A DNA stretch of 64,000 nt, from the NCBI RefSeq assembly GCF_028752835.1, contig NZ_CP087952.1, positions 2,399,041 to 2,463,040 of the forward strand, in the 5' to 3' direction. Both the position numbers and the translations under genes were made by a program. The notes under the pieces were generated by a model, which did not search any database, had not been told where the DNA came from, and was given only the letters and a program-made list of their open reading frames with translations. This DNA comes from Desulfosarcina sp. BuS5. GTDB taxonomy: Bacteria > Desulfobacterota > Desulfobacteria > Desulfobacterales > BuS5. This document shows positions 23-14,392 of this stretch, piece by piece; the stretch's first letter is position 1; every line of letters begins with the position of its first letter.

Positions 23-1144
23 ATGATTATTAGGGAAGCAATTACTGAAAAGCAAAGCGTCGTTTTTTACCTTGACAATTCACCTGATTGTTCAGGGTTA
101 GAGCAAATTGATGTGTCAGGTTATCAAAAATGTATAGTTATTTGTGATGAATATCTGGAAAAAACATGGTGGCCGATATTAAGAGAAAAACTTGAGAAAA
201 GAATCAACATATCTCATGTTGAATATTTATCAGCCTCAGAATCGTCAAAAAGTTTGGAATCATATGTTAAACTGGTTGATATTCTGGCAAAATTTCAATG
301 CAGCAGGGATGACCTTATTGTAGCTGTCGGGGGCGGCACAATTCTTGATGTTGCTGCGTTCCTGGCATCTACTTATATGCGCGGAATTGCAATGCTTATG
401 CTTCCTACCACGCTTATAGGTCAGGCCGATGCATCAACAGCAGGCAAAACTTGTTTAAACGCAGGCTATTCCAAAAATCTTTTAGGCACTCTTTATTTGC
501 CTGCTTATGTTTATAATAATGCAGCTATACTTAATACGAATTCATCTTATGACCTTAGACAGGGATTTTCTGAAATTTTTAAGTATGCCCTATTAGGGTC
601 CCACAAGTTATTAATTTTGCTTAAAGAATACAATAGAACACCCGACAACGACAAGTTGCTTGAAATAATAAAGGAAACCATAAAAGTCAGGATGATGATT
701 CGCAAGAAAGACCCCCTGGCAAGTAATTTCGGACATACTTTCGGCCATGCTTTTGAGAAATATTCTGATTTTGCAGTAGGGCATGGGGATGCCATAGCTG
801 TTGGAATTGCCATGGCTTTGGAGCTTAGTGTTATTAAAAAAATAATTTCTGAAAAATTGAAAAATGAAATATTTAGCTTGATGCGCGAATTAAAGCTTAA
901 CAATAAAGTGGAAAAAGGTATTGATCCTGAAAAAATAACCGAAATTATGCTTAAAGATAAAAAATCATCCAATACTGCTATTAGATTGGTACTGATTGAG
1001 GATATTGCCAAGCCGTTTGAAACCTCCGGCAGTCCTTTTTATTCGGTTAATCCAACATATATGCAAAATTTTTTGTCTGAAATTTTGCATAACGAAATGT
1101 ATTTTCAAAAAAATCATTGGGCTGAATTACGCAAAGGTATTTGA
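23..1144 (+). CDS. AroB-like sugar-phosphate cyclase (DHQ synthase superfamily)
   Basis: This 373-residue protein belongs to the 3-dehydroquinate synthase/sugar-phosphate cyclase family, NAD- and metal-dependent enzymes that cyclise a phosphorylated sugar acid or ketose. Seen: the NAD-binding VGGGTILD motif (residues 102-109), the PTTLIGQADAST block with the conserved GKT and KNLLGTLYLP segments (128-160), and candidate metal ligands E184, H238 (in NFGHTFGHAFE) and H254 (in GHGDA). The segment just before NFGHTFGHA is shorter than in true AroB and lacks the E-x-G-x-R motif, so the substrate may not be DAHP. The gene leads a tight run with an SDR (3-bp gap), a nucleotidyltransferase and a CDP-alcohol phosphotransferase, which points to cyclitol formation rather than shikimate synthesis. 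Family assignment is strong; the substrate (for example sedoheptulose 7-phosphate) is inference. The cluster may continue upstream of the window. Confidence 0.8.
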   Translation: MIIREAITEKQSVVFYLDNSPDCSGLEQIDVSGYQKCIVICDEYLEKTWWPILREKLEKRINISHVEYLSASESSKSLESYVKLVDILAKFQCSRDDLIVAVGGGTILDVAAFLASTYMRGIAMLMLPTTLIGQADASTAGKTCLNAGYSKNLLGTLYLPAYVYNNAAILNTNSSYDLRQGFSEIFKYALLGSHKLLILLKEYNRTPDNDKLLEIIKETIKVRMMIRKKDPLASNFGHTFGHAFEKYSDFAVGHGDAIAVGIAMALELSVIKKIISEKLKNEIFSLMRELKLNNKVEKGIDPEKITEIMLKDKKSSNTAIRLVLIEDIAKPFETSGSPFYSVNPTYMQNFLSEILHNEMYFQKNHWAELRKGI

Positions 1145-1147
1145 CGA

Positions 1148-1924
1148 ATGAGATTTAAAGACAAGATTTTTGTTGTTACCGGAGGCGGAACAGGTATCGG
1201 CAGTTGTATTGCAAAAGATTTGTGTGCTGAAGGTGGTATAGTAAATATTCTTGGGAGACGCTCCCGGGAACTGGAAAAGATAAAAAATCAAACAGCCGGC
1301 AAAACTGTATGCCAAGGTAAAATAATACCTTATACTTGTGATATATCATCTGCAGAACAGGTTAATAAAATTTTCGACGCTATTCTCAAAACAACAGGTC
1401 CTGTTAATGGTTTGGTTAATAATGCCGGAGTCAATCCTTCCCGTACTGATATTATTAACACAGATGTAACAGCCTGGAAGAATACGCTGGATATTAATTT
1501 AAGTGGAGCTTTTAATTGTTCAAAAGCCGCTGTAAAACAAATGCTGTTGAGTGGAATGGGCAGTATTGTAAACATATCTTCAATAGCAGGGATCAGCGCA
1601 ATGCAAAACAGAACCGCTTATTCAGCAAGTAAAGCCGGTTTAATAGGCTTTGCCAGGGCAATGGCTATTGATTTTGCAAAAAATCAAATCAGGGTGAATT
1701 GTGTGTGCCCCGGATATATTGAAACTAATCTTGTCAGAGAATATCTGAAAAGTTTAAATAAAGAGGAATTCGACAGCCTTGTAAATGCTCACCCATTAAA
1801 AAGGTTAGGCTCTGCAAAAGATATTTCACAAGCAGTTTTATTTTTGTTATCCAGTGCTGCGAATTGGATTACAGGCGCTGTATTACCTGTTGATGGCGGC
1901 TACAGCATGGGCAAGGAGTGTTGA
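1148..1924 (+). CDS. SDR-family NAD(P)-dependent oxidoreductase
   Basis: Classical short-chain dehydrogenase of 258 residues. It carries the TGGGTGIG nucleotide-binding motif at residues 11-18, NNAG at 91-94 and a full catalytic triad S145, Y158 and K162 (YSASK). The C-terminal ITGAVLPVDGGYS matches the FabG-like branch. It starts 3 bp after the cyclase gene and is followed within 5 bp by the nucleotidyltransferase, so the run is presumably one transcript. In that setting the most economical role is oxidation or reduction of the cyclase product (inference). A general FabG role is less likely, because no fatty-acid synthesis genes are nearby. Confidence 0.85.
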   Translation: MRFKDKIFVVTGGGTGIGSCIAKDLCAEGGIVNILGRRSRELEKIKNQTAGKTVCQGKIIPYTCDISSAEQVNKIFDAILKTTGPVNGLVNNAGVNPSRTDIINTDVTAWKNTLDINLSGAFNCSKAAVKQMLLSGMGSIVNISSIAGISAMQNRTAYSASKAGLIGFARAMAIDFAKNQIRVNCVCPGYIETNLVREYLKSLNKEEFDSLVNAHPLKRLGSAKDISQAVLFLLSSAANWITGAVLPVDGGYSMGKEC

Positions 1925-1928
1925 ATTA

Positions 1929-2657
1929 ATGATAAAAACCGCTATTATTTTAGCTGCCGGCATAGGCGTACGTTTGCGTCCATTGACTCTTGATACTCCA
2001 AAATGCCTGATTGCGATTGATGATAAATCTATCCTTGATTATCAATTGAAACTTTTGATCAAGATGGGGATTACAAATATTATAATTGTTACCGGTTACT
2101 TAAGTGATAAAATTGCAGATCATATAAAAAATCATCATTATGATAACAAGGTTAATATTCATATAGTATTTAATGATCGATATAAAGAGACCGGCAGTTG
2201 TTATTCTTTGCTGCTATGCAGAGAACTGATCAGGGGTAAGGGTTATATCCATATAAATTCCGATTCTTATTTTTCGATTGCGGCGCTGAAAAATCTTTTG
2301 GCAAGTAAGCAGCCGAATGTAATGCTTACATCTTTGCCTCTGATTCAGGACGAAGATATTGTTCGCTTTGAGTGTAACCATGACCGGAAAATTACAAAAA
2401 TAGGAAGACCATGGTATATCCCTGAACCGGCAGGTTATCTGGTTGGGCCGGTAAAATTTTCTTCACAAGGAGCGGCGATTTTTTTAGATATAATAGAAAA
2501 ACGGATCGAAAAAGAGATTATGAATGACACATGTTATCTTTTTTTAAATGAAGTAATTGATAAGATTAACCTGTTCAGTCTTGATGTAGGTAGTGAGAAG
2601 TGGTTTGAAATAGATACCCTTGATGATCTGGAAAGAGCAAAAAAAATACTGGTATAG
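1929..2657 (+). CDS. LicC-like nucleotidyltransferase (NTP transferase family)
   Basis: A 242-residue nucleotidyltransferase that would activate a phosphorylated alcohol or sugar with an NTP. The N-terminus shows the family signature L-A-A-G-x-G-x-R-L-x-P-L-T-x-x-x-P-K (about residues 8-25). A later NSDSYF supplies the metal-binding aspartate, and the C-terminus has the WFEIDTLDDLERA ending typical of phosphocholine and sugar-phosphate transferases. The ATG at 1929 is chosen because it begins directly before the conserved beta strand (IKTAIILAAG); an in-frame ATG at 1854 lies inside the SDR gene. The neighbouring CDP-alcohol phosphotransferase suggests that the product is a CDP-activated group, which is inference. 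Confidence 0.8.
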   Translation: MIKTAIILAAGIGVRLRPLTLDTPKCLIAIDDKSILDYQLKLLIKMGITNIIIVTGYLSDKIADHIKNHHYDNKVNIHIVFNDRYKETGSCYSLLLCRELIRGKGYIHINSDSYFSIAALKNLLASKQPNVMLTSLPLIQDEDIVRFECNHDRKITKIGRPWYIPEPAGYLVGPVKFSSQGAAIFLDIIEKRIEKEIMNDTCYLFLNEVIDKINLFSLDVGSEKWFEIDTLDDLERAKKILV

Positions 2658-2666
2658 ATTAAAAAA

Positions 2667-3419
2667 ATGGAAAATTCAACATCCGAAACAAAGCAGTCTC
2701 AAATATTTAATAATTTTAAAAACAAGGTTCCGAAAAGAAAAAATCTGTTTGAAGCATTTTATAATTTTTTAGCTTCCCTGGTGACGCCCCTCTTTCTCAA
2801 CACTTCCTGGACACCGAATCAAATAACTATTATTTCAGGAGTTTTCGGTATAGCAGGAGCTGCGTTGCTGATTTTTCAAGGCCATTTTTTTTTAATTACG
2901 GCTGGAATATGCATCCAGATTTTTACTATTTTGGATCTTGTTGACGGTAATATTGCCAGAGCTAAAAAGATGCAATCTGATTTTGGAGCATGGCTGGATG
3001 CTTTTTTTGACAAGCTTAATGACTTTCTCATAATCACAGGTTTAACTATTGGAGCTTATCGTTCAGTCGGCAGTATTCACGTTTTAATTTTAGGAATGTG
3101 CCTGATGGGGTTTGTGTTTTATATTCAGTATATTATGACATGGAGTAAGATGCAGATAATTTGTGCGGAAATTGCCGAAAAGAGTAATCCGGGATCTGCG
3201 CAACAGCATCGTAAAATGAATGATTCCGCGGCAATAGTATCTGCGTTAAAATTTATTTTTCAGCATGCAAAGCTTGGGCATTGTGCGTTTCTTTTTTTGG
3301 TTTCTTTTTTTGCGTTTTGCAATTCTTTATATTTAGGCCTCTGTTTTCTGGTTATCCATGCATTTATAACTCTGACTGCTTTAGTTACGCTTAATTTTTT
3401 ACGATTGAGGAGGCAATAG
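2667..3419 (+). CDS. CDP-alcohol phosphatidyltransferase family membrane protein
   Basis: A 250-residue integral membrane enzyme with the complete CDP-alcohol phosphotransferase signature D-G-x2-A-R-x8-G-x3-D-x3-D: D93, G94, A97, R98, G107, D111 and D115. Several hydrophobic helices surround it (about residues 52-90, 125-150 and 205-245). The family moves a phospho-alcohol from a CDP donor to an alcohol acceptor with loss of CMP, as in phospholipid and di-myo-inositol phosphate synthesis. Preceded at 10 bp by a nucleotidyltransferase, it probably uses that enzyme's product. Donor and acceptor cannot be read from sequence; a cyclitol phospholipid or a phosphodiester-linked surface decoration are both possible. 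Confidence 0.85.
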   Translation: MENSTSETKQSQIFNNFKNKVPKRKNLFEAFYNFLASLVTPLFLNTSWTPNQITIISGVFGIAGAALLIFQGHFFLITAGICIQIFTILDLVDGNIARAKKMQSDFGAWLDAFFDKLNDFLIITGLTIGAYRSVGSIHVLILGMCLMGFVFYIQYIMTWSKMQIICAEIAEKSNPGSAQQHRKMNDSAAIVSALKFIFQHAKLGHCAFLFLVSFFAFCNSLYLGLCFLVIHAFITLTALVTLNFLRLRRQ

Positions 3420-3740: not shown

Positions 3741-3755
3741 TAATAATTGAAGCGC

Positions 3756-5489
3756 ATGTTGAATATCATAAAAAAAAACAGGATATTATATTTTTTATAT
3801 CCTTTTGTTGCCCGATACAAATATATAGTTGTGATGATATTGATTACCACTGTTGTATCGGCATTCCTGGAAGGATTATCAATCGGGCTCCTTGTCCCTT
3901 TCCTCAGGTCTTTATCAGGAATCAGCGCCGAAACGTATGATTCTTCATTGATGTCATATGTTAATACTTTTTTTTTAAAATTTCCTGAACACGACAGAAT
4001 ACTTTATATTTCCGCCTTTATTTTTTTGGCGATAATTTTAAAAAATGGAATTTACTATATATCAAAGATTTTTATTGCATATTTAAATACAAAATTAGCC
4101 TTTGATATACGCAGCAAACTTCTTTCATTATTTATCAATGTACGTCTTTCTTTTTTTATGCAGCATAAGGCAGCCGATCTTACTGATCGTATAAATCTGC
4201 AAGTACATTATTGTGGCACTGCTGTACAGAATATACTCCTTCTTATTTCATCTGCCATAGTCACTCTCGCGTATATCTTTTTAATGATATTTATCTCCTT
4301 CTACATAACCTTGATCGCCAGCGCCGTGATTTTTGGAATTTTTGTTTTTCTTCGTTATCTTACCTCATCGGTCAGGCGTTATGGAACCCAGTCAGCGGAT
4401 TCAATCGGCGCGATGTCTGCAAGGATCGGGGAGATGATAATGGGTATCGCCACAGTAAAAATGTTCGGCCGCGAAAAACATGAAACAAACCGCGCAAGCG
4501 AACTTCTTGCTATCATACGGGACAGTCAGTATAAATCTTTAAATTGGGAAGCCACTATACAACCTTTAAGCGAAATTTTTATTACAGCCACTATATTGAT
4601 TTTAATTATTGCATCGATTTTTTTTATTAGCCAACCGCCTGATTTTGCACTGTTGATTACTTTCCTGTTTCTTCTTTCACGGCTTAATTCAAAAGCTTCA
4701 ATTATAAGTTCATTATTCGCCAAGACAAGGAGTCAGTTGGGATATGTGGATCGTGTTATAAGTATTTATCAGGATATGAAAAGCCAAATATTCAATAATG
4801 GAACTTATGAAATTAAAAAAATAGATGACAGTATTTTTTTAAATAATATAACTTTTTATTATCCGGGTTCACACCAAGCTGTCTTTGAAAAGAGTACCCT
4901 TAAAGTGCGGAAGGGTGAAAAAATTGCTATTATCGGCCCATCCGGTTCAGGAAAGTCAACTATGATCAATCTTCTATTAAGATTTTATGATCCTGATAAG
5001 GGTTCTGTTTTTATAGACGGAAAGAATCTGACTGATTTAGAGATAGCTTCTTACCGGCGCAGGATAGCAATTGTAAGCCAGGATATATTTTTATTTCATG
5101 ATACTGTCAGGAATAATATTGCCTATGGCGCAGACAATACAAGTAATGAAGATATAGTTGTGGCTTGCAAACAGGCCTTTGCTCATGATTTTATCATTTC
5201 CCTTGAACATGGGTATGATACAGTTATTGCCGACCGCGGGATGAAACTATCCGGCGGACAAAAGCAGAGAATAGCCATAGCAAGAGCAATTTTAAAAGAC
5301 CCCGATATTCTGATTCTGGATGAAGCGACCAGCGGGCTGGATAAACAGACTGAGATCCAGGTTCAAGAATCGCTGGAAAAGCTTGCTATAGATCGAACTG
5401 TAATTATAATTACACACCGTTTAAAGGCGCTTAAAAAAGTAGATAAAGTTTACGAGATAAAAGATGGTAAATTTATTTTAAAAGGATAA
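3756..5489 (+). CDS. MsbA-type ABC transporter (fused membrane and ATPase domains)
   Basis: A half-transporter of 577 residues with an N-terminal six-helix membrane domain (roughly residues 15-310) and a C-terminal ATPase. The ATPase has Walker A GPSGSGKST, Q-loop SQDIF, signature LSGGQKQR, Walker B ILILDEATSGLD and the ITHR histidine switch. Such homodimeric exporters flip lipid A, lipid-linked oligosaccharides or peptides across the inner membrane. It is the first gene after a long palindrome, and the following glycosyltransferases suggest a lipid-linked glycan substrate (inference). ATG 3756 is chosen; an in-frame TTG at 3747 is an alternative. The next gene starts 3 bp after its stop. Confidence 0.9.
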   Translation: MLNIIKKNRILYFLYPFVARYKYIVVMILITTVVSAFLEGLSIGLLVPFLRSLSGISAETYDSSLMSYVNTFFLKFPEHDRILYISAFIFLAIILKNGIYYISKIFIAYLNTKLAFDIRSKLLSLFINVRLSFFMQHKAADLTDRINLQVHYCGTAVQNILLLISSAIVTLAYIFLMIFISFYITLIASAVIFGIFVFLRYLTSSVRRYGTQSADSIGAMSARIGEMIMGIATVKMFGREKHETNRASELLAIIRDSQYKSLNWEATIQPLSEIFITATILILIIASIFFISQPPDFALLITFLFLLSRLNSKASIISSLFAKTRSQLGYVDRVISIYQDMKSQIFNNGTYEIKKIDDSIFLNNITFYYPGSHQAVFEKSTLKVRKGEKIAIIGPSGSGKSTMINLLLRFYDPDKGSVFIDGKNLTDLEIASYRRRIAIVSQDIFLFHDTVRNNIAYGADNTSNEDIVVACKQAFAHDFIISLEHGYDTVIADRGMKLSGGQKQRIAIARAILKDPDILILDEATSGLDKQTEIQVQESLEKLAIDRTVIIITHRLKALKKVDKVYEIKDGKFILKG

Positions 5490-7004: not shown

Positions 7005-8153
7005 ATGCCGAATAAACCTAAAAAAATAATTCTCTTCGTAGGAAAACTGGGAGGAGGAGGAGCTGAAAGGCGGATTGTTTATCTCGCCAATTATTTTCAT
7101 GCAAAAGGATATAATGTTATCATCGCTCTTTCCAGAATCACAGGCAATTATCTGGATGACTTAAATCCTGATGTCAAGGTTGTTTGCCAGTCCATGAATA
7201 TTAAAATGGGGCCGCTCACTCCGATAATTTTAACATTGCATACACTTTGGCTTTTATTTAAAGAAAGACCGGATGTACTTTTTTCTACTTTATTTCATAA
7301 TAATAAAATATTACTTCCTATTTCCTTTATTATAAAAAAAGCAGGAACAAAGTTATTTGTTGGAGTAGTTAACAATCCTGAAAAAAAATTTAAAGTACAG
7401 CTTAAAGCCAAAATTTTTATTGCGAAATGGTACCCCAAGGCAGATCTGGTAATCACAAATTCGAATGGGATTAAAAGATCTATGATGAATTATTTTAAAA
7501 TATCATCGTCTAAAATTTGTGTAATTAATAATGGCATTGATATTGATGCCATTCATAAGAAGATGCTACAAAATGCGGCAATTCCCAAAATCCCATCAAC
7601 ACATGGGCGGCTGGTTTATGTCGGGCGATTATCACCGCAAAAGGGATTGAATGATCTCTTACTGACATTAAAATATCTCAATGCTATCAAGCCATGTTCT
7701 TTGTTGATTATTGGCGAAGGAAGCGAGTTGTCTATGCTGCATGATTTAACTGATAAACTTGGGTTGCAGGATGCCATTCACTTTTTGGGCCAGGTAAAAA
7801 ATCCTTATCCCTATATATACTCATCTGAAATTTTGATTTTATCATCACACTATGAAGGATTCCCTAATGTTATTCTGGAGGCAATGATTTGCGGAGTACC
7901 CGTAATATCAACAGATGCACCTTATGGACCTAATGAAATCATCAAGGACGGCTGGAATGGTTTTTTAACGCGGGTTGGAGATTGGCAACAAATGGCTGAC
8001 AAAATTTTGCAGGTACTTGGAGATGATAATATCAGGCAATCTTTTATCTGCAATGGGGAAAAAAGAATTGTAAAGCATTTTAATCTCGAAAAAATGTGCG
8101 AACGGTATGAAAAAGCTTTTTTTAGCTGGAAGGAAAATACAGATGAAAAATAG
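7005..8153 (+). CDS. GT4-family glycosyltransferase
   Basis: A 382-residue GT-B glycosyltransferase. The N-terminal domain begins with the FVGKLGGGGAERR loop. The C-terminal domain has LVYVGRLSPQKG, a GEGSE segment and the EGFPNVILE block matching the E-x7-E motif that contacts the sugar nucleotide, followed by GVPVISTDAPYGPNE. It would transfer a sugar from an NDP donor to a lipid-linked glycan at the cytoplasmic face. Donor and linkage cannot be read. Its 3-prime end overlaps the next GT4 gene by 11 bp, a sign of translational coupling. Confidence 0.88.
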   Translation: MPNKPKKIILFVGKLGGGGAERRIVYLANYFHAKGYNVIIALSRITGNYLDDLNPDVKVVCQSMNIKMGPLTPIILTLHTLWLLFKERPDVLFSTLFHNNKILLPISFIIKKAGTKLFVGVVNNPEKKFKVQLKAKIFIAKWYPKADLVITNSNGIKRSMMNYFKISSSKICVINNGIDIDAIHKKMLQNAAIPKIPSTHGRLVYVGRLSPQKGLNDLLLTLKYLNAIKPCSLLIIGEGSELSMLHDLTDKLGLQDAIHFLGQVKNPYPYIYSSEILILSSHYEGFPNVILEAMICGVPVISTDAPYGPNEIIKDGWNGFLTRVGDWQQMADKILQVLGDDNIRQSFICNGEKRIVKHFNLEKMCERYEKAFFSWKENTDEK

Positions 8154-9231
8154 GATCCTCCATTTCATCTATACCCTTCAGGGCGGCGGGGCCGAGAAGC
8201 AGTTAAAATACCTTCTTAATACAATGGATACTGATCGGTTTCTTAATGCAGTCTGCTGCGGCAACACTGAAGGAACGGATGACCTTGCTACTGGTGTTGA
8301 AATCTTCGAGATTCCAGGAAAATTCCGCTTTGACCTTAGATGGAGACGGATATTTAAATGCATTAAATCGTGGCGGCCTGATATTATTCATAACTGGCTG
8401 CCTAATGGGTTATGGCCGAGTTTGATACCGTCCTGGTTTTCCGGCACTCCCTGCTATGTTGCGTCATATAGAAATTATTATAAGATTAATCGGTTGCAGG
8501 ATGCCATTGAAACTGCAGGGTTCTGTTTAAGTAATAGAATCGTGTCTAATTCCGGCTCTATGGGATTTCCATACAAGAACATTTTTGCTTTAAAAAAAGG
8601 GGTTGTTATACCTAACGGTGTCGATCTGGCTCATATTGGCTGCCTGGAATCATTCGATATTTCCAGGCTCGGAATTGATAATCAAAAACCGGTGATCCTT
8701 TATGCAGGAAGACTTGTAGAACATAAAAATATTCAGGTACTGCTAAATGCTGTTTCTTTATTAAAAGATGAAGGGATTGCTATAACGCTTTTGCTTTGCG
8801 GAACAGGAAATTATTCAAATAATCTGCAACAAATATCTCATAAACTTGGCATAAAAAATCAGGTTCTCTTTGCTGGATATCGTGATGATGTGTTAAGGAT
8901 TATGAAAAGTTGCGATATGCTGTTACTGCCCTCTTTTTATGAGGGAATGCCTAACGTTGTTTTTGAAGCAATGGCGACAGGTATTCCTGTGATTGCAAGT
9001 GACATCAAAGCGCATAATAAGTGGATAACACATAAAAAAACCGGACTTCTTTTTTGTCCGAATGACCACCAGGATCTTGCTGATAATATTAAACAAATTT
9101 TAAACGAGCCTGAAACAACAAAAAAGAAGCGTCTTGCCGCCGCTCGCAGCATCGTAAACAAATTGAGCCTTATTAAAATGGCAGGGGCTTATGAAGCTTT
9201 TTATAAAGATTGTTTAAAAACGGCTCATTAA
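8143..9231 (+). CDS. GT4-family glycosyltransferase
   Basis: A 362-residue GT-B enzyme of the GT4 family. It has the N-terminal TLQGGGAEKQLKYLLN loop, the central VILYAGRLVEHKN strand, and EGMPNVVFEAMATGIPVIASD carrying the E-x7-E donor site. ATG 8143 begins right before the first beta strand and overlaps the previous gene by 11 bp; an in-frame ATG at 8107 would lengthen the overlap and add residues outside the fold. It is probably the second of three sequential GT4 steps of the same glycan. Confidence 0.87.
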   Translation: MKNRILHFIYTLQGGGAEKQLKYLLNTMDTDRFLNAVCCGNTEGTDDLATGVEIFEIPGKFRFDLRWRRIFKCIKSWRPDIIHNWLPNGLWPSLIPSWFSGTPCYVASYRNYYKINRLQDAIETAGFCLSNRIVSNSGSMGFPYKNIFALKKGVVIPNGVDLAHIGCLESFDISRLGIDNQKPVILYAGRLVEHKNIQVLLNAVSLLKDEGIAITLLLCGTGNYSNNLQQISHKLGIKNQVLFAGYRDDVLRIMKSCDMLLLPSFYEGMPNVVFEAMATGIPVIASDIKAHNKWITHKKTGLLFCPNDHQDLADNIKQILNEPETTKKKRLAAARSIVNKLSLIKMAGAYEAFYKDCLKTAH

Positions 9232-9242
9232 CAAACGAATAT

Positions 9243-10409
9243 ATGAAAATAATTCACGTTGTTGCTTCACTGGATCCCGCACAGGGCGGCCCTGCCAGGA
9301 GCATGCCCAGTCTTGCCGCGGCCCAGGCAAAACTTGGGCATGATGTAACTCTATTTTATAATGCAGCGCCTGGTCGCATGGAGGATATTAAAGTTGCGAC
9401 CGCCTCAATTCCTCATTTTGACCTTGTCAACACTGTAACCTGCCCTCAGCCTGACGGCCTGGAAAAATTGACTGGAAACAGAGCCGGACGCATATTTAAA
9501 ACCATCCTGGATAAAAATGCTGTTATCCATATCCATGGCTTATGGCTTCCGATTTTACAAAAAGCCGCATCACTTTCAATAAAGCAGGGAGCTAAATATA
9601 TCATTGCTCCAAGGGGCATGCTGAATCCCTGGAGTTTGAATCAAAAAAGCTGGAAAAAAAGATTGGCATTGCATTTAGTCTGGAGGCGTATTTTAAATCA
9701 TGCCTTTTTTCTGCATGTGCTGAATGCTGATGAGAAAAAATTTATCACGTCTCTTAACCTTAACTGTCCTATGGAAATAATTCCAAACGGAATTTTTCCG
9801 GAAGAATTAAATAATCTTCCTCCTGAAAACAGATTCTACAATTTTTTTCCAAGGATAAAGAATAGGCCTTATATCCTTTTTTTGGGCAGGCTGCATGAAA
9901 TGAAAGGCCTTGATTATCTTGCGGAAGCATTTAACGAATTTGTTAAAAAGAATAATGATGTAGATCTGGTGGTCGCCGGCCCCGATGAAGGCGCAAGGGA
10001 TAATTTTGAGAAACAGATTGATCATTATGGCATAAAAAAAAGAGTACATCTGGTGGGGCCTCTTTATGGAGTAAAAAAATATGCGGCTTTTGTTGATGCA
10101 AAATGTTTTTGCCAGCCAAGCCGGGAGGAGGGTTTCAGCATGGCCTCAGCGGAAGCAATGGGATGCGGTCTGCCGGTTGTTATTTCAAAAAATTGCCATT
10201 TCCCCGAAGTTGCAGAGGCTGGAGCGGGGGAGGTTGTCGATCTTGATGCAAAAGCAATCAGCAGGGCTTTGCACAGGGTTTTGGGCAATGAAGATGAAAG
10301 AGTGAAAATGGGTGAAGTAGCACAAAAGTTGGTTCTTTCTCGTTTTACCTGGCCGAATATAGCCAAAGGGACTATTGCTGCCTATAAACGTGGATCTGCG
10401 AATAAATAG
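9243..10409 (+). CDS. GT4-family glycosyltransferase
   Basis: A 388-residue GT4 enzyme. The N-terminus has the DPAQGGPARS loop and an IHIHGLWLP segment common in WcaI/WcaL-like transferases. The C-terminal half has YILFLGRLHEMKGLDYL, then SREEGFSMASAEAMGCGLPVV with the donor-site acidic residues. ATG 9243 follows the previous stop by 11 bp. A start at 9210 would sit inside the upstream gene and is not needed. It is moderately similar in layout to the other two GT4 proteins but is clearly a separate gene, not a duplicate. Confidence 0.87.
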   Translation: MKIIHVVASLDPAQGGPARSMPSLAAAQAKLGHDVTLFYNAAPGRMEDIKVATASIPHFDLVNTVTCPQPDGLEKLTGNRAGRIFKTILDKNAVIHIHGLWLPILQKAASLSIKQGAKYIIAPRGMLNPWSLNQKSWKKRLALHLVWRRILNHAFFLHVLNADEKKFITSLNLNCPMEIIPNGIFPEELNNLPPENRFYNFFPRIKNRPYILFLGRLHEMKGLDYLAEAFNEFVKKNNDVDLVVAGPDEGARDNFEKQIDHYGIKKRVHLVGPLYGVKKYAAFVDAKCFCQPSREEGFSMASAEAMGCGLPVVISKNCHFPEVAEAGAGEVVDLDAKAISRALHRVLGNEDERVKMGEVAQKLVLSRFTWPNIAKGTIAAYKRGSANK

Positions 10410-10449
10410 CGATCTCGGTGGGATATATGATAATTCAGGAGCGTAGTGC

Positions 10450-10995
10450 TTGAGACTCGATTTGTTTGACAATACAGACGTTTTTACAAGGGGCAGGCCC
10501 GCCTGGGTAGAGATGGTATGGCTGGTGGTGCAGGCCTTTTTTGTAAATTCATGGATTCCGGGTTCTCTTCATAGAATCTTTTTTTTGCGTATTTTTGGAG
10601 CCAAAATAGGAAAAGGGGTAGTTATCAAACCCGGAGTCAGGGTGAAATTTCCCTGGCGTCTTGCGATAGGAGATTATTCCTGGATTGGAGAAGATGTTTG
10701 GATAGATAATCTGGCCCAGGTAAATATAGGCAATCACTGTTGCATTTCTCAGGATGTTTATATTTGTACCGGCAACCATGATTGGGAAAATGAGAGATTC
10801 AGCCTTATATCAAGCCCTGTTACAGTGAAGGATAAGGTCTGGCTCTGCGCTAAATCTGTAGTAGGGCCAGGCATTATGGTGAATGAGGGCGCTGTGCTGG
10901 GACTTTCAAGCCTTGCAGTTAATGACCTTAATCCATGGTCTGTTTATAAAGGGGTCCCCGCAAAATTGTCCAGTAAAAGAAACAAACAGGCTTGA
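10450..10995 (+). CDS. WcaF-type hexapeptide-repeat acetyltransferase
   Basis: A 181-residue left-handed beta-helix acyltransferase. The imperfect hexapeptide repeats run from about residue 50 (IGKGVVIKPGVRVKF, LAIGDYSWIGEDVWI, VNIGNHCCISQDVYI). They are followed by the TGNHDWENERF loop with the likely catalytic histidine, and by VWLCAKSVVGPGIMVNEGAVLG. This matches WcaF-like enzymes that O-acetylate capsule sugars with acetyl-CoA. The start is TTG at 10450, preceded by an AGGAG ribosome site. The gene sits among glycosyltransferases, consistent with acetylation of the same glycan. Confidence 0.85.
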   Translation: MRLDLFDNTDVFTRGRPAWVEMVWLVVQAFFVNSWIPGSLHRIFFLRIFGAKIGKGVVIKPGVRVKFPWRLAIGDYSWIGEDVWIDNLAQVNIGNHCCISQDVYICTGNHDWENERFSLISSPVTVKDKVWLCAKSVVGPGIMVNEGAVLGLSSLAVNDLNPWSVYKGVPAKLSSKRNKQA

Positions 10996-11055
10996 TTTTA
11001 ATAAGAGCCCCTGTTTTTATTATAAATTTGGTATTAATATGCTGGTCGTAATTTT

Positions 11056-11805
11056 ATGAAAATATCAGTAATCACTGTTTGCCGTAATGCTGAGGCCACA
11101 ATCTCGGACACGTTATTTTCCGTGCAGGAACAGTCTTATAACAATATTGAACATATTCTGATTGACGGAGCTTCTTCTGATGGAACTGCAGATATAATTC
11201 GCAAGCATGAAAGACGGCTGGCTTACTGGGTCTCCGAGCCGGATCAAGGAATCTATGATGCCATGAACAAAGGAATTCAGCAGGCTACAGGTGATCTGGT
11301 CGGGTTTTTGAATGCCGATGATATATTTGCAAATAATATGGTGTTGGAATGGATTGCCAAAGCTTTCTCGGAGAGAGATATAAGCGCTTGTTATGGTGAC
11401 CTTATTTATGTTGACCATACAGACTTAAGCCGGGTAGTGCGCTATTACAGGAGCAAATATTTTACTCCCGCAAGGATTGCATGCGGAGTCATGCCTGCCC
11501 ATCCGACTCTTTATCTAAAAAATGATATTTTTAAAAAATTTGGTCTTTTTAAAACAGATTACCGTATTGCGGCGGATTTTGAATTTATTGCCAGGATATT
11601 CGGCAAGCAGATGATTAAGTTTCACTATATCCCCAGAGTGTTGGTAAAAATGAGAATGGGCGGGATAAGCACCAGGAGTATAAAAAGTAATTTTATTCTA
11701 AATCAAGAGATATTTAGAGCCTGTTGTGAAAATAATATCCCGACAAGCTTGTTCAAGGTTTATTCAAAGTATTTTAGAAAGATTTTTGAGTTGGTACAGA
11801 GGTGA
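11056..11805 (+). CDS. GT2-family glycosyltransferase (WcaE-like)
   Basis: A 249-residue GT-A glycosyltransferase. It starts MKISVITVCRNAEATI and carries the HILIDGASSDGTADI segment and the FLNADD metal site, with the preceding SEPDQGIYDAMNKGI block seen in WcaE/colanic-acid-type enzymes. It should be cytoplasmic or peripheral and transfer a sugar to the growing lipid-linked oligosaccharide. It lies directly before the nucleotide-sugar epimerase and after the acetyltransferase. Confidence 0.87.
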   Translation: MKISVITVCRNAEATISDTLFSVQEQSYNNIEHILIDGASSDGTADIIRKHERRLAYWVSEPDQGIYDAMNKGIQQATGDLVGFLNADDIFANNMVLEWIAKAFSERDISACYGDLIYVDHTDLSRVVRYYRSKYFTPARIACGVMPAHPTLYLKNDIFKKFGLFKTDYRIAADFEFIARIFGKQMIKFHYIPRVLVKMRMGGISTRSIKSNFILNQEIFRACCENNIPTSLFKVYSKYFRKIFELVQR

Positions 11806-11836
11806 GACTTTTTGTAAAAATCTCAAACGGCATTTT

Positions 11837-12796
11837 ATGAACATACTTGTAACCGGCGCTAATGGTTTTATAGGACAGGCATTGTGCGCAAGATTATGCG
11901 CCGATGCCCGGCACGTGCGAGGCGCTGTCAGATCGCCGCAAAAAGCGGAAACCCTTCCAAAAAAAGTATCTCCGGTTATAGTAAAATCAATCGGGCCTCA
12001 AACCGACTGGTCTGAAGCCCTGACCGGCATCGACACGGTGGTTCATCTTGCTGCGCGGGCGCATGTGCTGAAAGATGCGGCCGCAGATCCTCTTACAGCA
12101 TTTCGGGAGGTAAACCTTAAAGGCACGGCGCGTCTTGCCGGGATGGCGGCGCAGTCCGGTGTAAGGCGCTTTATTTATATGAGTTCAGTCAAGGCCTGCG
12201 GTGAAAACAGGGGATTGCCATATTCCGAAGATGATCAGCCTGAGCCTCAAGATCCATATGGTATCAGCAAATGGGAAGCAGAGCAGGCCCTGCATGAAAT
12301 TTCAGAAAAGACAGGCATGGAGGTTGTTGTTATCAGACCGCCGCTGGTATACGGGCCCGGCATAAAAGCCAATTTTTTAAGTCTTTTCAAAATTATTGAA
12401 CGGGGCATTCCTTTACCATTGGCAGGTGTTGAAAACCGTCGCAGTTTAATCTACCTGGAAAATCTGGTTGACGCTGTTTTAAAATGCATTCTTCATCCAA
12501 AAGCATCCGGGAAGACTTATTTTGTGAGTGACGGGGTCGATCTTTCAACCCCTGAACTGATCAGGAAGATTGCCGCTGCTATGGGGAAGCCGGCGCGCCT
12601 TTTTTACTCACCCTCTTTTTTGCTGAAAGCGGCAGGAATGTTTTCAGGCAAATCCGGGCAGGTTGACCGCCTTACAGGATCACTTACGGTTGACAGTGAT
12701 AAAATCCAAAGGGCATTAGGGTGGAAAGCAAATTATACTATTGACCAGGGACTATCAGAAACTGCAAAGTGGTATTTAAAAATAAAGGATGCTTAA
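11837..12796 (+). CDS. NAD-dependent nucleotide-sugar epimerase/dehydratase (WbpV-like)
   Basis: A 319-residue extended SDR. It has the TGANGFIG dinucleotide motif at the N-terminus, a MSSVKACGE strand with the catalytic serine and a YGISK Tyr-Lys pair, followed by VIRPPLVYGPG. This subfamily acts on UDP-sugars, and in O-antigen loci members are commonly paired with a WbpL-type phosphoglycosyl transferase. Here that partner is present at 15193 but displaced by 2.4 kb. ATG 11837 is chosen because the Rossmann strand begins there. Base composition is richer in GC than the neighbouring GT genes. Confidence 0.85.
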   Translation: MNILVTGANGFIGQALCARLCADARHVRGAVRSPQKAETLPKKVSPVIVKSIGPQTDWSEALTGIDTVVHLAARAHVLKDAAADPLTAFREVNLKGTARLAGMAAQSGVRRFIYMSSVKACGENRGLPYSEDDQPEPQDPYGISKWEAEQALHEISEKTGMEVVVIRPPLVYGPGIKANFLSLFKIIERGIPLPLAGVENRRSLIYLENLVDAVLKCILHPKASGKTYFVSDGVDLSTPELIRKIAAAMGKPARLFYSPSFLLKAAGMFSGKSGQVDRLTGSLTVDSDKIQRALGWKANYTIDQGLSETAKWYLKIKDA

Positions 12797-12799
12797 ACC

Positions 12800-14392
12800 A
12801 TGCAGAAATTACCCATTGGGATATCCACATTCAAAGAGATTCGGAAAAAGTATGGATATTATGTCGATAAAACTTTGCTTTTAAAAAAACTGGTTGATAA
12901 TGGAAAATATTATTTTATGGCGCGCCCGCGGCGGTTTGGCAAGAGTTTGTTTATTGATACGCTGAAGCAGGCTTTTTTAGCCGAAAAAAAATATTTCAAG
13001 GGTTTGTTTTTAGAGCAAAACTGGGATTGGGCACAGAAATATCCGGTTATTCATATCAGTTTTGGGGCGGGTGTGATTCAATCCGCCCGGCACTTGAATG
13101 AAGTGATAAACTATAACATGGATAAACACTATGCTGTTTATAAAATAACCAACCGATATAAATCGCCTGACATAAAATTTCATGAATTAATTAAAATTCT
13201 GCATGAGAAATACCAGCAGCAGGTCGTTATCCTGATAGATGAGTATGATAAACCGATTCTTGACAATATTACTGAAACAGGTATTGCCCTGGAGATCAGG
13301 GAAGGTCTGAAAAATTTATACTCGGTTATAAAAGATTGTGATGAATTCCTGAAATTTGTTTTTTTTACCGGCGTAAGCAAGTTTTCAAAGGTGAGTCTTT
13401 TCAGCGGTCTTAATAACTTGACCGATATTACCCTGGATCACCGGTATGCCACCCTGTGCGGTTATACCCATCCTGAGCTGATTCATACTTTTAAAGATCG
13501 GCTGGACGGGGTCGATCAGGACAAGATAAAGCTTTGGTATGATGGTTACAGTTTTTTGGGAGAGACTGTTTATAATCCTTATGATATTCTTCTTTACCTG
13601 GATTCCGGGGTTTATAAAAATTACTGGTTTGAAACAGCAACGCCTTCATTTCTGATTAAGCTGATCCGGGAGAGAAAATATTTTGTGCCCAGGATAGAAG
13701 ATATAAAAGCTACTGAAACTCTTTTAAGCAGTTTTGATGTTGATGTTATTGAGCTGGAAACACTTTTGTTTCAGACCGGTTATTTAACTATTACAGGCAG
13801 AAGGCAGGTTGGTGCGAGGGAAATATATGAACTGGGCTATCCCAACCTGGAAGTAAAAATGAGTTTAACCGATTATATTTTGCATTACCTGCTAAAAGAA
13901 ACCTCAAATAAAGAAGATAACAAAATAGCCATATATGAAGCTTTGGTGGAAGCTGATTTTGACAAGCTGCAAACTGTTTTTCATTCCCTGTTCGCTTCAA
14001 TTCCTTATAACTGGTATGTTAATAATGATCTTGATAAATACGAAGGCTATTATGCCTCTATCTTTTATTGCTATTTTGCGGCCTTGGGGATTGACGTAAA
14101 ACCTGAAGATCCCACCAATCATGGCCGAATTGATTTAACTATTAAATTAGACAGGCATATTTATCTGATTGAATTCAAAGTGATTGAATTGGATCAAAAC
14201 AAAAATAAGGCCCTGGCACAGATTAAAACAAAAAAGTATTTTGAAAAATATCAGGCATTGCTCCATTCTGATGACTATAAAATATTCCTGGTCGGCGTTG
14301 ACTTCAGCAGAAATGAAAAAAATATTGTTGGTTTTGAGTGGGAACGGCTGAAAAACTCTTTTTCAGCCTTGTTAAATAAGAATGGGTTTTAA
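12800..14392 (+). CDS. AAA-ATPase-like / PD-(D/E)XK nuclease-like protein
   Basis: A 530-residue protein of the AAA-ATPase_like plus PDDEXK_9 (DUF1703) type. The N-terminal ATPase shows YVDKT, the atypical P-loop RPRRFGKS (residues 42-49) and Walker B VVILIDEYDKP (D147, E148). The C-terminal nuclease-like domain has GRIDLTI followed by YLIEFKV, the D...E-x-K core (about 445-462). These genes are abundant and patchy in Bacteroidetes and Desulfobacterota; their biological role is not established. It begins 3 bp after the epimerase stop, between two genes that normally adjoin, and two broken relatives lie within 4 kb. Apparently intact. Confidence 0.85.
   Translation: MQKLPIGISTFKEIRKKYGYYVDKTLLLKKLVDNGKYYFMARPRRFGKSLFIDTLKQAFLAEKKYFKGLFLEQNWDWAQKYPVIHISFGAGVIQSARHLNEVINYNMDKHYAVYKITNRYKSPDIKFHELIKILHEKYQQQVVILIDEYDKPILDNITETGIALEIREGLKNLYSVIKDCDEFLKFVFFTGVSKFSKVSLFSGLNNLTDITLDHRYATLCGYTHPELIHTFKDRLDGVDQDKIKLWYDGYSFLGETVYNPYDILLYLDSGVYKNYWFETATPSFLIKLIRERKYFVPRIEDIKATETLLSSFDVDVIELETLLFQTGYLTITGRRQVGAREIYELGYPNLEVKMSLTDYILHYLLKETSNKEDNKIAIYEALVEADFDKLQTVFHSLFASIPYNWYVNNDLDKYEGYYASIFYCYFAALGIDVKPEDPTNHGRIDLTIKLDRHIYLIEFKVIELDQNKNKALAQIKTKKYFEKYQALLHSDDYKIFLVGVDFSRNEKNIVGFEWERLKNSFSALLNKNGF

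Follow-up and report, generated by a model that had tools for sequence, protein, structure and literature searches.

A recurrent gene module with a candidate new clade of sugar phosphate cyclases and a modified GAPDH-like enzyme in Desulfosarcina sp. BuS5 and scattered genomes

Sugar phosphate cyclases known so far serve the formation of antibiotics, sunscreens and aromatic amino acids; according to PMC5133447 they release the phosphate of their substrate, which is not kept in the known products. The same source places the uncharacterised cyclase EboD in a scattered conserved operon (ebo), with UbiA, a metal-dependent hydrolase and a xylose-isomerase-like protein as its partners. In the synthesis of di-myo-inositol phosphate (DIPP; enzymes IPCT and DIPPS) a cytidylyltransferase is followed by a CDP (cytidine diphosphate)-alcohol transferase. 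Enzymes of these types are encoded by four adjacent genes (23–3419, + strand) in a stretch of 64,000 nucleotides from Desulfosarcina sp. BuS5 (contig NZ_CP087952.1, positions 2,399,041 to 2,463,040; hereafter the window): an enzyme of the sugar-phosphate-cyclase superfamily (23–1144, 373 aa; assigned from Pfam, tree, residues and AlphaFold model), a short-chain dehydrogenase/reductase (SDR; 1148–1924, 258 aa; Pfam and intact motifs), a nucleotidyltransferase of the LicC/inositol-phosphate-cytidylyltransferase type (1929–2657, 242 aa from the ATG at 1929) and a CDP-alcohol phosphotransferase (2667–3419, 250 aa). Coordinates, Pfam matches and motifs agree with the intergenic gaps (3, 4 and 9 bp) and the families given in a first-pass annotation, and the transferase signature it had called perfect is an exact match. 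On the sequence evidence described below, these genes belong to a real and recurrent module, apparently a variant among the sugar-phosphate-cyclase pathways with two distinct enzyme clades.

With 4 kb upstream of the window added to the analysis, the four genes proved to be the last of seven in a longer run, which begins with a methyltransferase-like gene just upstream of the window (L005 1046–2392, 448 aa), a GAPDH-like gene wholly upstream of it (L005 2407–3456, 349 aa) and a P-loop kinase gene (L005 3449–4018, equal to genome C1 2398489–2399058; 189 aa). The spacings are 14 bases between the first two, an 8-base overlap between the GAPDH-like and kinase genes and 4 bases between kinase and cyclase. 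The kinase gene starts 552 bases before window base 1 and only its last codons (1–18, + strand) fall inside; the first-pass annotation had seen no kinase, which holds for the window itself, and had suggested extending the contig upstream, where the kinase is indeed the next gene.

The locus resembles DIPP synthesis in the pairing of its last two enzymes; unlike that system, it encodes them separately (66.8 and 58.3 bits for a cut-off of 580), and no inositol-1-phosphate synthase was found in its genome. CpgD, of ceramide diphosphoglycerate, is likened by description only: it is also of COG1213 type, related to inositol-phosphate cytidylyltransferases and linked to a glycerate theme, and the available part of PMC12275187 mentions no cyclase or GAPDH-like enzyme in its system. 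A DUF5941 cluster of Streptomyces (L067) likewise joins a LicC-type enzyme ('phosphocholine cytidylyltransferase family'), an enzyme of the dehydroquinate synthase (DHQS)/Fe-ADH superfamily, a CDP-alcohol transferase and a transporter; its superfamily member is glycerol-1-phosphate-dehydrogenase-like (230 bits, cut-off 413) and, unlike the window, the cluster has no cyclase. On that plasmid (Streptomyces fungicidicus p1, 8407–13660), DUF5941, a glycosyltransferase and an ABC transporter stand in a run near hopanoid genes. Searches of an open-licence library, which mostly excludes subscription papers, yielded no description of the window's gene set among the titles and abstract beginnings listed.

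The cyclase and the GAPDH-like enzyme

The window cyclase matched the Pfam families DHQ_synthase (111 bits) and DHQS_C (85 bits) over their cut-offs. Against the NCBIfam aroB model it gave 250.3 bits (E 3e-74) and did not reach the cut-off of 305, the best aroB E value among the ten module cyclases (the window and the nine relatives presented below) being 1.1e-77 (about 262 bits, converted from E); against TIGR04425, an AroB-related phospholyase model, it gave 200.1 bits for a cut-off of 400 (E 5e-59, the best of the ten members). In a midpoint-rooted tree the ten cyclases form a single clade (support 100/100), sister to a group of DHQS, aminoDHQS and DOIS that itself has 91/81 support, and separate from the sedoheptulose 7-phosphate (S7P) cyclases, DDGS and EboD. 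This tree, built without 2-epi-valiolone synthase (EVS) sequences, superseded a single-row tree in which the window cyclase sat unplaced on a long branch. The module cyclases fall outside EEVS, S7P cyclases and DDGS, with clades apart at 100% bootstrap and different motifs (four reference rows only).

The fold, the GGG motif and the residues D136, K142, K151-N152, E184, K187, H238, H242, H254 and K314 are common to AroB, aminoDHQS, DOIS, EEVS/DDGS, EboD and the module cyclases; together with N235, these catalytic or phosphate-site residues are invariant in the ten. Unlike the enzymes just named, the module cyclases carry the motif D-A-x-T-A-G-K-T-C and, in 10/10, a replacement of Lys250 by Arg and a six-residue deletion directly before N-L/F-G-H-T, at the position of DHQS Arg264. 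In A. nidulans numbering, Arg264 and Lys250 are taken by us to be the carboxylate-binding residues of DHQS, with the arginine binding the carboxylate of 3-deoxy-D-arabino-heptulosonate 7-phosphate (DAHP). The AlphaFold model of the cyclase (predicted local distance difference test, pLDDT, 91) aligns with DHQ synthase (1nvd, VIA Z 39.5), DOIS (2gru, 37.2) and ValA (4p53, 37.0) alike, so the fold does not discriminate between them, and the other Foldseek rows for this model and for that of the GAPDH-like protein contained ordinary relatives only.

The window cyclase is the sole DHQ_synthase-family gene of the host genome (4.18 Mb, two contigs, 97.27% complete). Judged by its genes, the host forms dehydroquinate in the archaeal manner, through ADH synthase and DHQ synthase II, the latter adjoining the former and scoring 426 bits in Pfam and 503 bits in NCBIfam; both enzymes are over their cut-offs. 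KdsA is the only DAHP_synth_1 match in the genome (DAHP synthase type II, PF01474, was not searched), and inositol-1-phosphate synthase (PF01658) gave no match there, with the control positive in 6 of 14. From the archaeal-type route, the lack of another DHQ_synthase gene and the lack of inositol-phosphate synthase it follows that this enzyme is no housekeeping AroB. A second aroB is thus literally absent, a circumstance that the first-pass annotation had counted against a new pathway; it is explained here by the DHQ synthase II route, and six of the nine host genomes of the relatives carry a further DHQ_synthase gene. A lack of AroB in the whole order was also considered and is contradicted by matches in 298 of 389 order genomes (at 1e-10); the nearest relatives, G001–G003, all incomplete genomes, gave no AroB match. 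The earlier view of the enzyme as AroB-like yet no ordinary AroB is borne out by these data, which point to a new sugar-phosphate-cyclase clade lacking the carboxylate-site loop.

The GAPDH-like protein of the run has the GAPDH fold and both Pfam GAPDH domains, shared with GAPDH and erythrose-4-phosphate dehydrogenase together with the catalytic residues, C153 and H180, which are invariant in the module. It departs from these enzymes around both residues, with Cys-Asp and His-Pro-Trp(-Leu) in 10/10 members against Cys-Thr and His-x-x-Thr in 12/12 reference GAPDHs; the altered positions are presumably the phosphate-binding positions of GAPDH. Further differences are a low-confidence loop (185–215) in the model and scores below the NCBIfam cut-offs, the window member giving 260.8 bits where GAPDH type I demands 367. 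The ten proteins and one from a viral contig (L249) form a clade with 100/100 support when set against 12 viral-contig GAPDHs; of 15 viral-contig loci considered for this tree, 13 had a usable open reading frame (ORF) and 2 were dropped. Scanned members of the cyclase and GAPDH-like clades pass no NCBIfam cut-off, the window member alone having been scanned in the GAPDH-like case. On L249 (IMG/VR 3300037586_005524, 8994–13850) the GAPDH-like gene stands with a SerA-like gene, an HpaI-type aldolase gene and glycan-type genes, and the SerA-like enzyme is 46% identical to that of G050, a Desulfobacterales metagenome-assembled genome (MAG).

Recurrence and distribution of the module

Among the 389 order genomes a close relative of the cyclase was found in G050 (46% over nearly the full length). 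A species-genome scan with the window and G050 cyclases as queries returned nine loci, G050 included, from Deltaproteobacteria (55%), Desulfobacterales, Gemmatimonadaceae, Nitrospinia, Woesearchaeota, Peregrinibacteria, Woesebacteria, Gammaproteobacteria and Solobacterium; this is a lower bound, as the scan used two motifs and favours their carriers. With the window included, 10/10 loci have the GAPDH-like gene, separated from the cyclase by 16 to 3343 bases. An SDR is near the cyclase in nine, a LicC-type cytidylyltransferase is present in six, a VOC/glyoxalase-fold protein in five and a CDP-alcohol transferase in four, with the gene order shuffled. By comparison, the surroundings of 24 canonical AroB genes (21 in genomes of the phylum, covering 3.4–19 kb, and 3 on plasmids) contained no GAPDH match, one SDR match (E 1e-3) and no loop deletion. 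The recurrence is not due to chance, the core being present in nine other genomes and missing from the 24 canonical neighbourhoods. A Fisher test for the GAPDH-like association used 21 control loci, taken as independent, and is indicative only. That the genes never co-occur elsewhere, which the first-pass annotation had named as a finding that would speak against its proposal, is refuted; the complete set with an exact-signature CDP-alcohol transferase was seen, besides the window, only at L129.

Wherever the cytidylyltransferase occurs (six loci), a kinase or kinase-like gene accompanies it; five of these kinases are recognisable and come from three glycerate/phosphoglycerate kinase families: MOFRL/DUF4147 (glycerate 2-kinase; L128, L130) and Gly_kinase (L129, L132), all over their Pfam cut-offs, and a 2-phosphoglycerate-kinase-like protein in the window, which gave 105 bits to NCBIfam 2-phosphoglycerate kinase (cut-off 343) and 49 bits to mevalonate-3-phosphate 5-kinase (cut-off 250). 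In the four loci lacking the cytidylyltransferase no such kinase was recognised, L127 being a stretch of 8.7 kb in which not every ORF was scanned (Fisher p 0.048 for the kinase/cytidylyltransferase association, the ten loci being treated as independent and the value indicative only). In L125 (the L114 contig) the place of the kinase is taken by a 2-hydroxyacid dehydrogenase resembling SerA, together with a class V aminotransferase, an arrangement that we take to resemble GAPDH/Epd, SerA/PdxB and SerC, enzymes of alpha-hydroxy and alpha-keto acids. In L131 (9109–19164, Gammaproteobacteria) SDR, cyclase and GAPDH-like genes lie beside a MATE exporter, a TauD oxygenase and a nonribosomal peptide synthetase (NRPS), in what is likely a natural-product cluster.

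The module is rare. Its cyclase was found in 2 of 389 order genomes (own included), 2 of 379, 1 of 237 and 1 of 205, among the matches listed; the last three figures come from searches centred on known members, beyond which nothing turned up. In the profile searches known members scored 569–618 bits and the best other protein listed 233 bits (379-genome search; the other two had a stricter limit), the scores of the members being high by design, since their own sequences make up the model. The window cyclase alone gave no matches in a scan of genome contigs or in a viral scan, nor did a kinase alignment in a viral scan, and when plasmids were searched with four proteins of the run (cyclase, GAPDH-like, kinase, CDP-alcohol transferase), no module member was among the matches listed. 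A kinase search gave 3 of 297 phylum genomes at 1e-8, own included, the other two without further genes of the set (stretches of 12 kb and 5.9 kb), and relatives of the CDP-alcohol transferase occurred in 27 of 58 order genomes, with no cyclase in the three neighbourhoods examined. In IMG/VR, the best 80 of 83 stretches with AroB-like genes (L133–L212) were about 25–34% identical to the window cyclase, and the loop-deletion motif was seen in 0/80.

Candidate pathway and alternative explanations

From the genes present, their co-occurrence, the two clades, the residues conserved or lost and the alternative dehydroquinate route we infer a set of reactions, their order and a product. The core of cyclase, SDR and GAPDH-like enzyme would be a conserved biosynthetic module of scattered bacteria and one archaeon working in the six steps that follow, a reading with a slight balance of probability in its favour. 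The cyclase, with NAD+ and a metal, would transiently oxidise a sugar phosphate lacking the carboxylate of DAHP, expel the phosphate and close a carbon ring, whose oxidation state the SDR (motifs TGxxxGIG, NNAG and S-Y-K intact; adh_short_C2, 210 bits, over cut-off) would then adjust. The GAPDH-like enzyme, acting through a Cys153/His180 thioester and without the normal phosphate site, may convert an alpha-hydroxy aldehyde into an alpha-hydroxy acid. As cyclases release phosphate, a kinase is needed before CDP activation, and the glycerate-type kinase would phosphorylate this acid. The LicC-type enzyme (NTP_transferase, 57 bits, over cut-off; top PDB match LicC, 1jyk, E 3e-21) would form the CDP derivative of the phosphorylated acid, and the CDP-alcohol transferase (CDP-OH_P_transf, 44 bits, over cut-off; signature D..DG..AR.8.G...D...D; top PDB match AF2299, 4o6m, E 1e-18) would hand the phosphorylated unit to a surface glycan or lipid, the downstream ABC exporter and glycosyltransferases handling the acceptor. 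The product of the module is thus probably a hydroxy acid derived from a carbocycle, which in the window would be phosphorylated, CDP-activated and moved to the surface. The cyclase-based CDP pathway of the first-pass annotation stands as a basic idea with an incomplete part list, to which the GAPDH-like enzyme, the kinase and often the VOC protein are added; retention of the phosphate from the cyclase substrate, one of two options given there, is probably wrong given the presence of a kinase and the phosphate release by known cyclases (PMC5133447).

Several observations weigh against this pathway. The nine relatives are all MAGs, and the motifs TAGKTC and LRQGFSEI were in part selected for, because the search patterns came from two members. 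L127 shows no SDR in 8.7 kb, and the cytidylyltransferase is absent at four of the ten loci. The window SDR is 46–51% identical to the cyclase-adjacent SDRs of L125 and L124; the others are only 26–34% alike, which leaves their orthology unsure. All kinases are under the NCBIfam equivalog cut-offs, and the kinase slot of L124 is filled by a protein of 236 aa with a sub-threshold DUF6206 match, whose identity as a kinase is a guess from sequence. The exact CDP-alcohol signature is found only in the window and L129, the L124 (22.1 bits, cut-off 22) and L130 proteins deviating from it, and on L249 a GAPDH-like gene of the module clade occurs without a cyclase (21 kb stretch).

The chief rival to the hydroxy-acid pathway is the handling of plain glycerate by the kinase and the nucleotidyltransferase. 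The operon would then contain two branches, cyclase, SDR and GAPDH-like enzyme making a sugar while kinase, cytidylyltransferase and CDP-alcohol transferase make and transfer plain phosphoglycerate by way of CDP-glycerate. According to PMC12275187, COG1213 enzymes related to the window nucleotidyltransferase accept phosphocholine, inositol phosphate, phosphoglutamine and phosphoglycerate, and one cytidylyltransferase of this group, CpgD, which is kin to the inositol-phosphate enzyme, has D-2-phosphoglycerate as its preferred substrate. The window nucleotidyltransferase alone therefore does not fix the substrate. Two branches would also suit the glycerate-type kinases from three families and the confinement of recognised kinases to cytidylyltransferase-bearing loci. 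However, 2- and 3-phosphoglycerate are glycolytic intermediates, so a dedicated kinase would be superfluous, and both branches stay together at six loci despite the shuffled gene order; we consider this explanation rather unlikely. The plain cyclitol expected in the first-pass annotation is harder to sustain. A C7 or C6 cyclitol made by cyclase and SDR, then phosphorylated and converted to a CDP-cyclitol with the GAPDH-like enzyme in a side role, would agree with the gene order and with the resemblance of cytidylyltransferase and transferase to the two halves of the DIPP enzyme (NF041135, 4mnd), but the GAPDH-like gene is near the cyclase in every locus, even those without CDP genes, and the recognised kinases are glycerate-type. 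Three kinase families with one glycerate theme suggest that the phosphorylated compound is glycerate-like, an acid and not a plain cyclitol, which makes this alternative improbable.

The other two rivals concern the cyclase itself. It might act as a phospholyase, limited to oxidation and phosphate elimination and giving a linear deoxy or unsaturated sugar with no ring, as the nearest non-aroB NCBIfam model, TIGR04425 ('putative sugar phosphate phospholyase (cyclizing)', 200 bits for a cut-off of 400), could be read to suggest. The name of that model itself includes 'cyclizing', the catalytic residues are kept in the module cyclases and the characterised relatives cyclise (PMC5133447), so we give this option little credence. 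Less credible still is an ordinary or relaxed AroB captured by a glycan locus and supplying dehydroquinate. The 250 bits to aroB and the position as sole family member in the genome would be in keeping with it, whereas the score under the aroB cut-off of 305, the DHQ synthase II and ADH synthase pair, KdsA as the only DAHP_synth_1 match, the loss of the Arg264 loop in 10/10 and the further family member in six of the nine hosts of the relatives are not. Capture of an ordinary AroB was rejected on the sub-cut-off score, the lost loop and the DHQ synthase II route.

Surface-glycan context and significance

Downstream of the run, 327 bases after the CDP-alcohol transferase gene, lies an ABC exporter gene of HepA/PglK/MsbA type (3747–5489, + strand; below NCBIfam cut-offs, its role being presumptive), followed by a family 4 glycosyltransferase (7005–8153, + strand), the first of several. 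Together with genes farther upstream that read like those of nonulosonic-acid type, these place the run in a surface-glycan locus. The methyltransferase-like protein that opens the run has its methyltransferase domain at the C-terminus and an N-terminus reminiscent of a ParB/sulfiredoxin fold; no homologue was found at the other module loci (E 1e-3). In the nonulosonic-acid region, a gene with CBS and nucleotidyltransferase parts (L002 1008–1963) has, by eye, a near-copy 11 kb away (12063–13121) that is split over two frames. Among the glycan genes of the window, an ORF of 530 aa (12800–14392) reads like an AAA-type ATPase.

Carbocyclic sugars have a precedent at the bacterial surface in bradyrhizose, from lipopolysaccharide, whose genes were unknown as of 2016 with a cluster proposed, according to PMC4743980; no direct link to the cyclase-GAPDH module is claimed. 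More tentatively than the core module itself, and short of what we would call probable, the loci may represent an unnamed pathway of Bacteria and Archaea in which a carbocyclic alpha-hydroxy acid serves as an interchangeable block, CDP-activated for surface polymers (window, L128–L130, L132), oxidised and aminated (L125) or passed to an NRPS (L131). The annotation labels 'AroB' and 'GAPDH' would mislead for members of the module, and the two signatures allow more of them to be found. If the proposal is true, the cyclase clade, the modified GAPDH and the glycerate-type kinases would constitute an added route to carbon-ring blocks for surface glycans.

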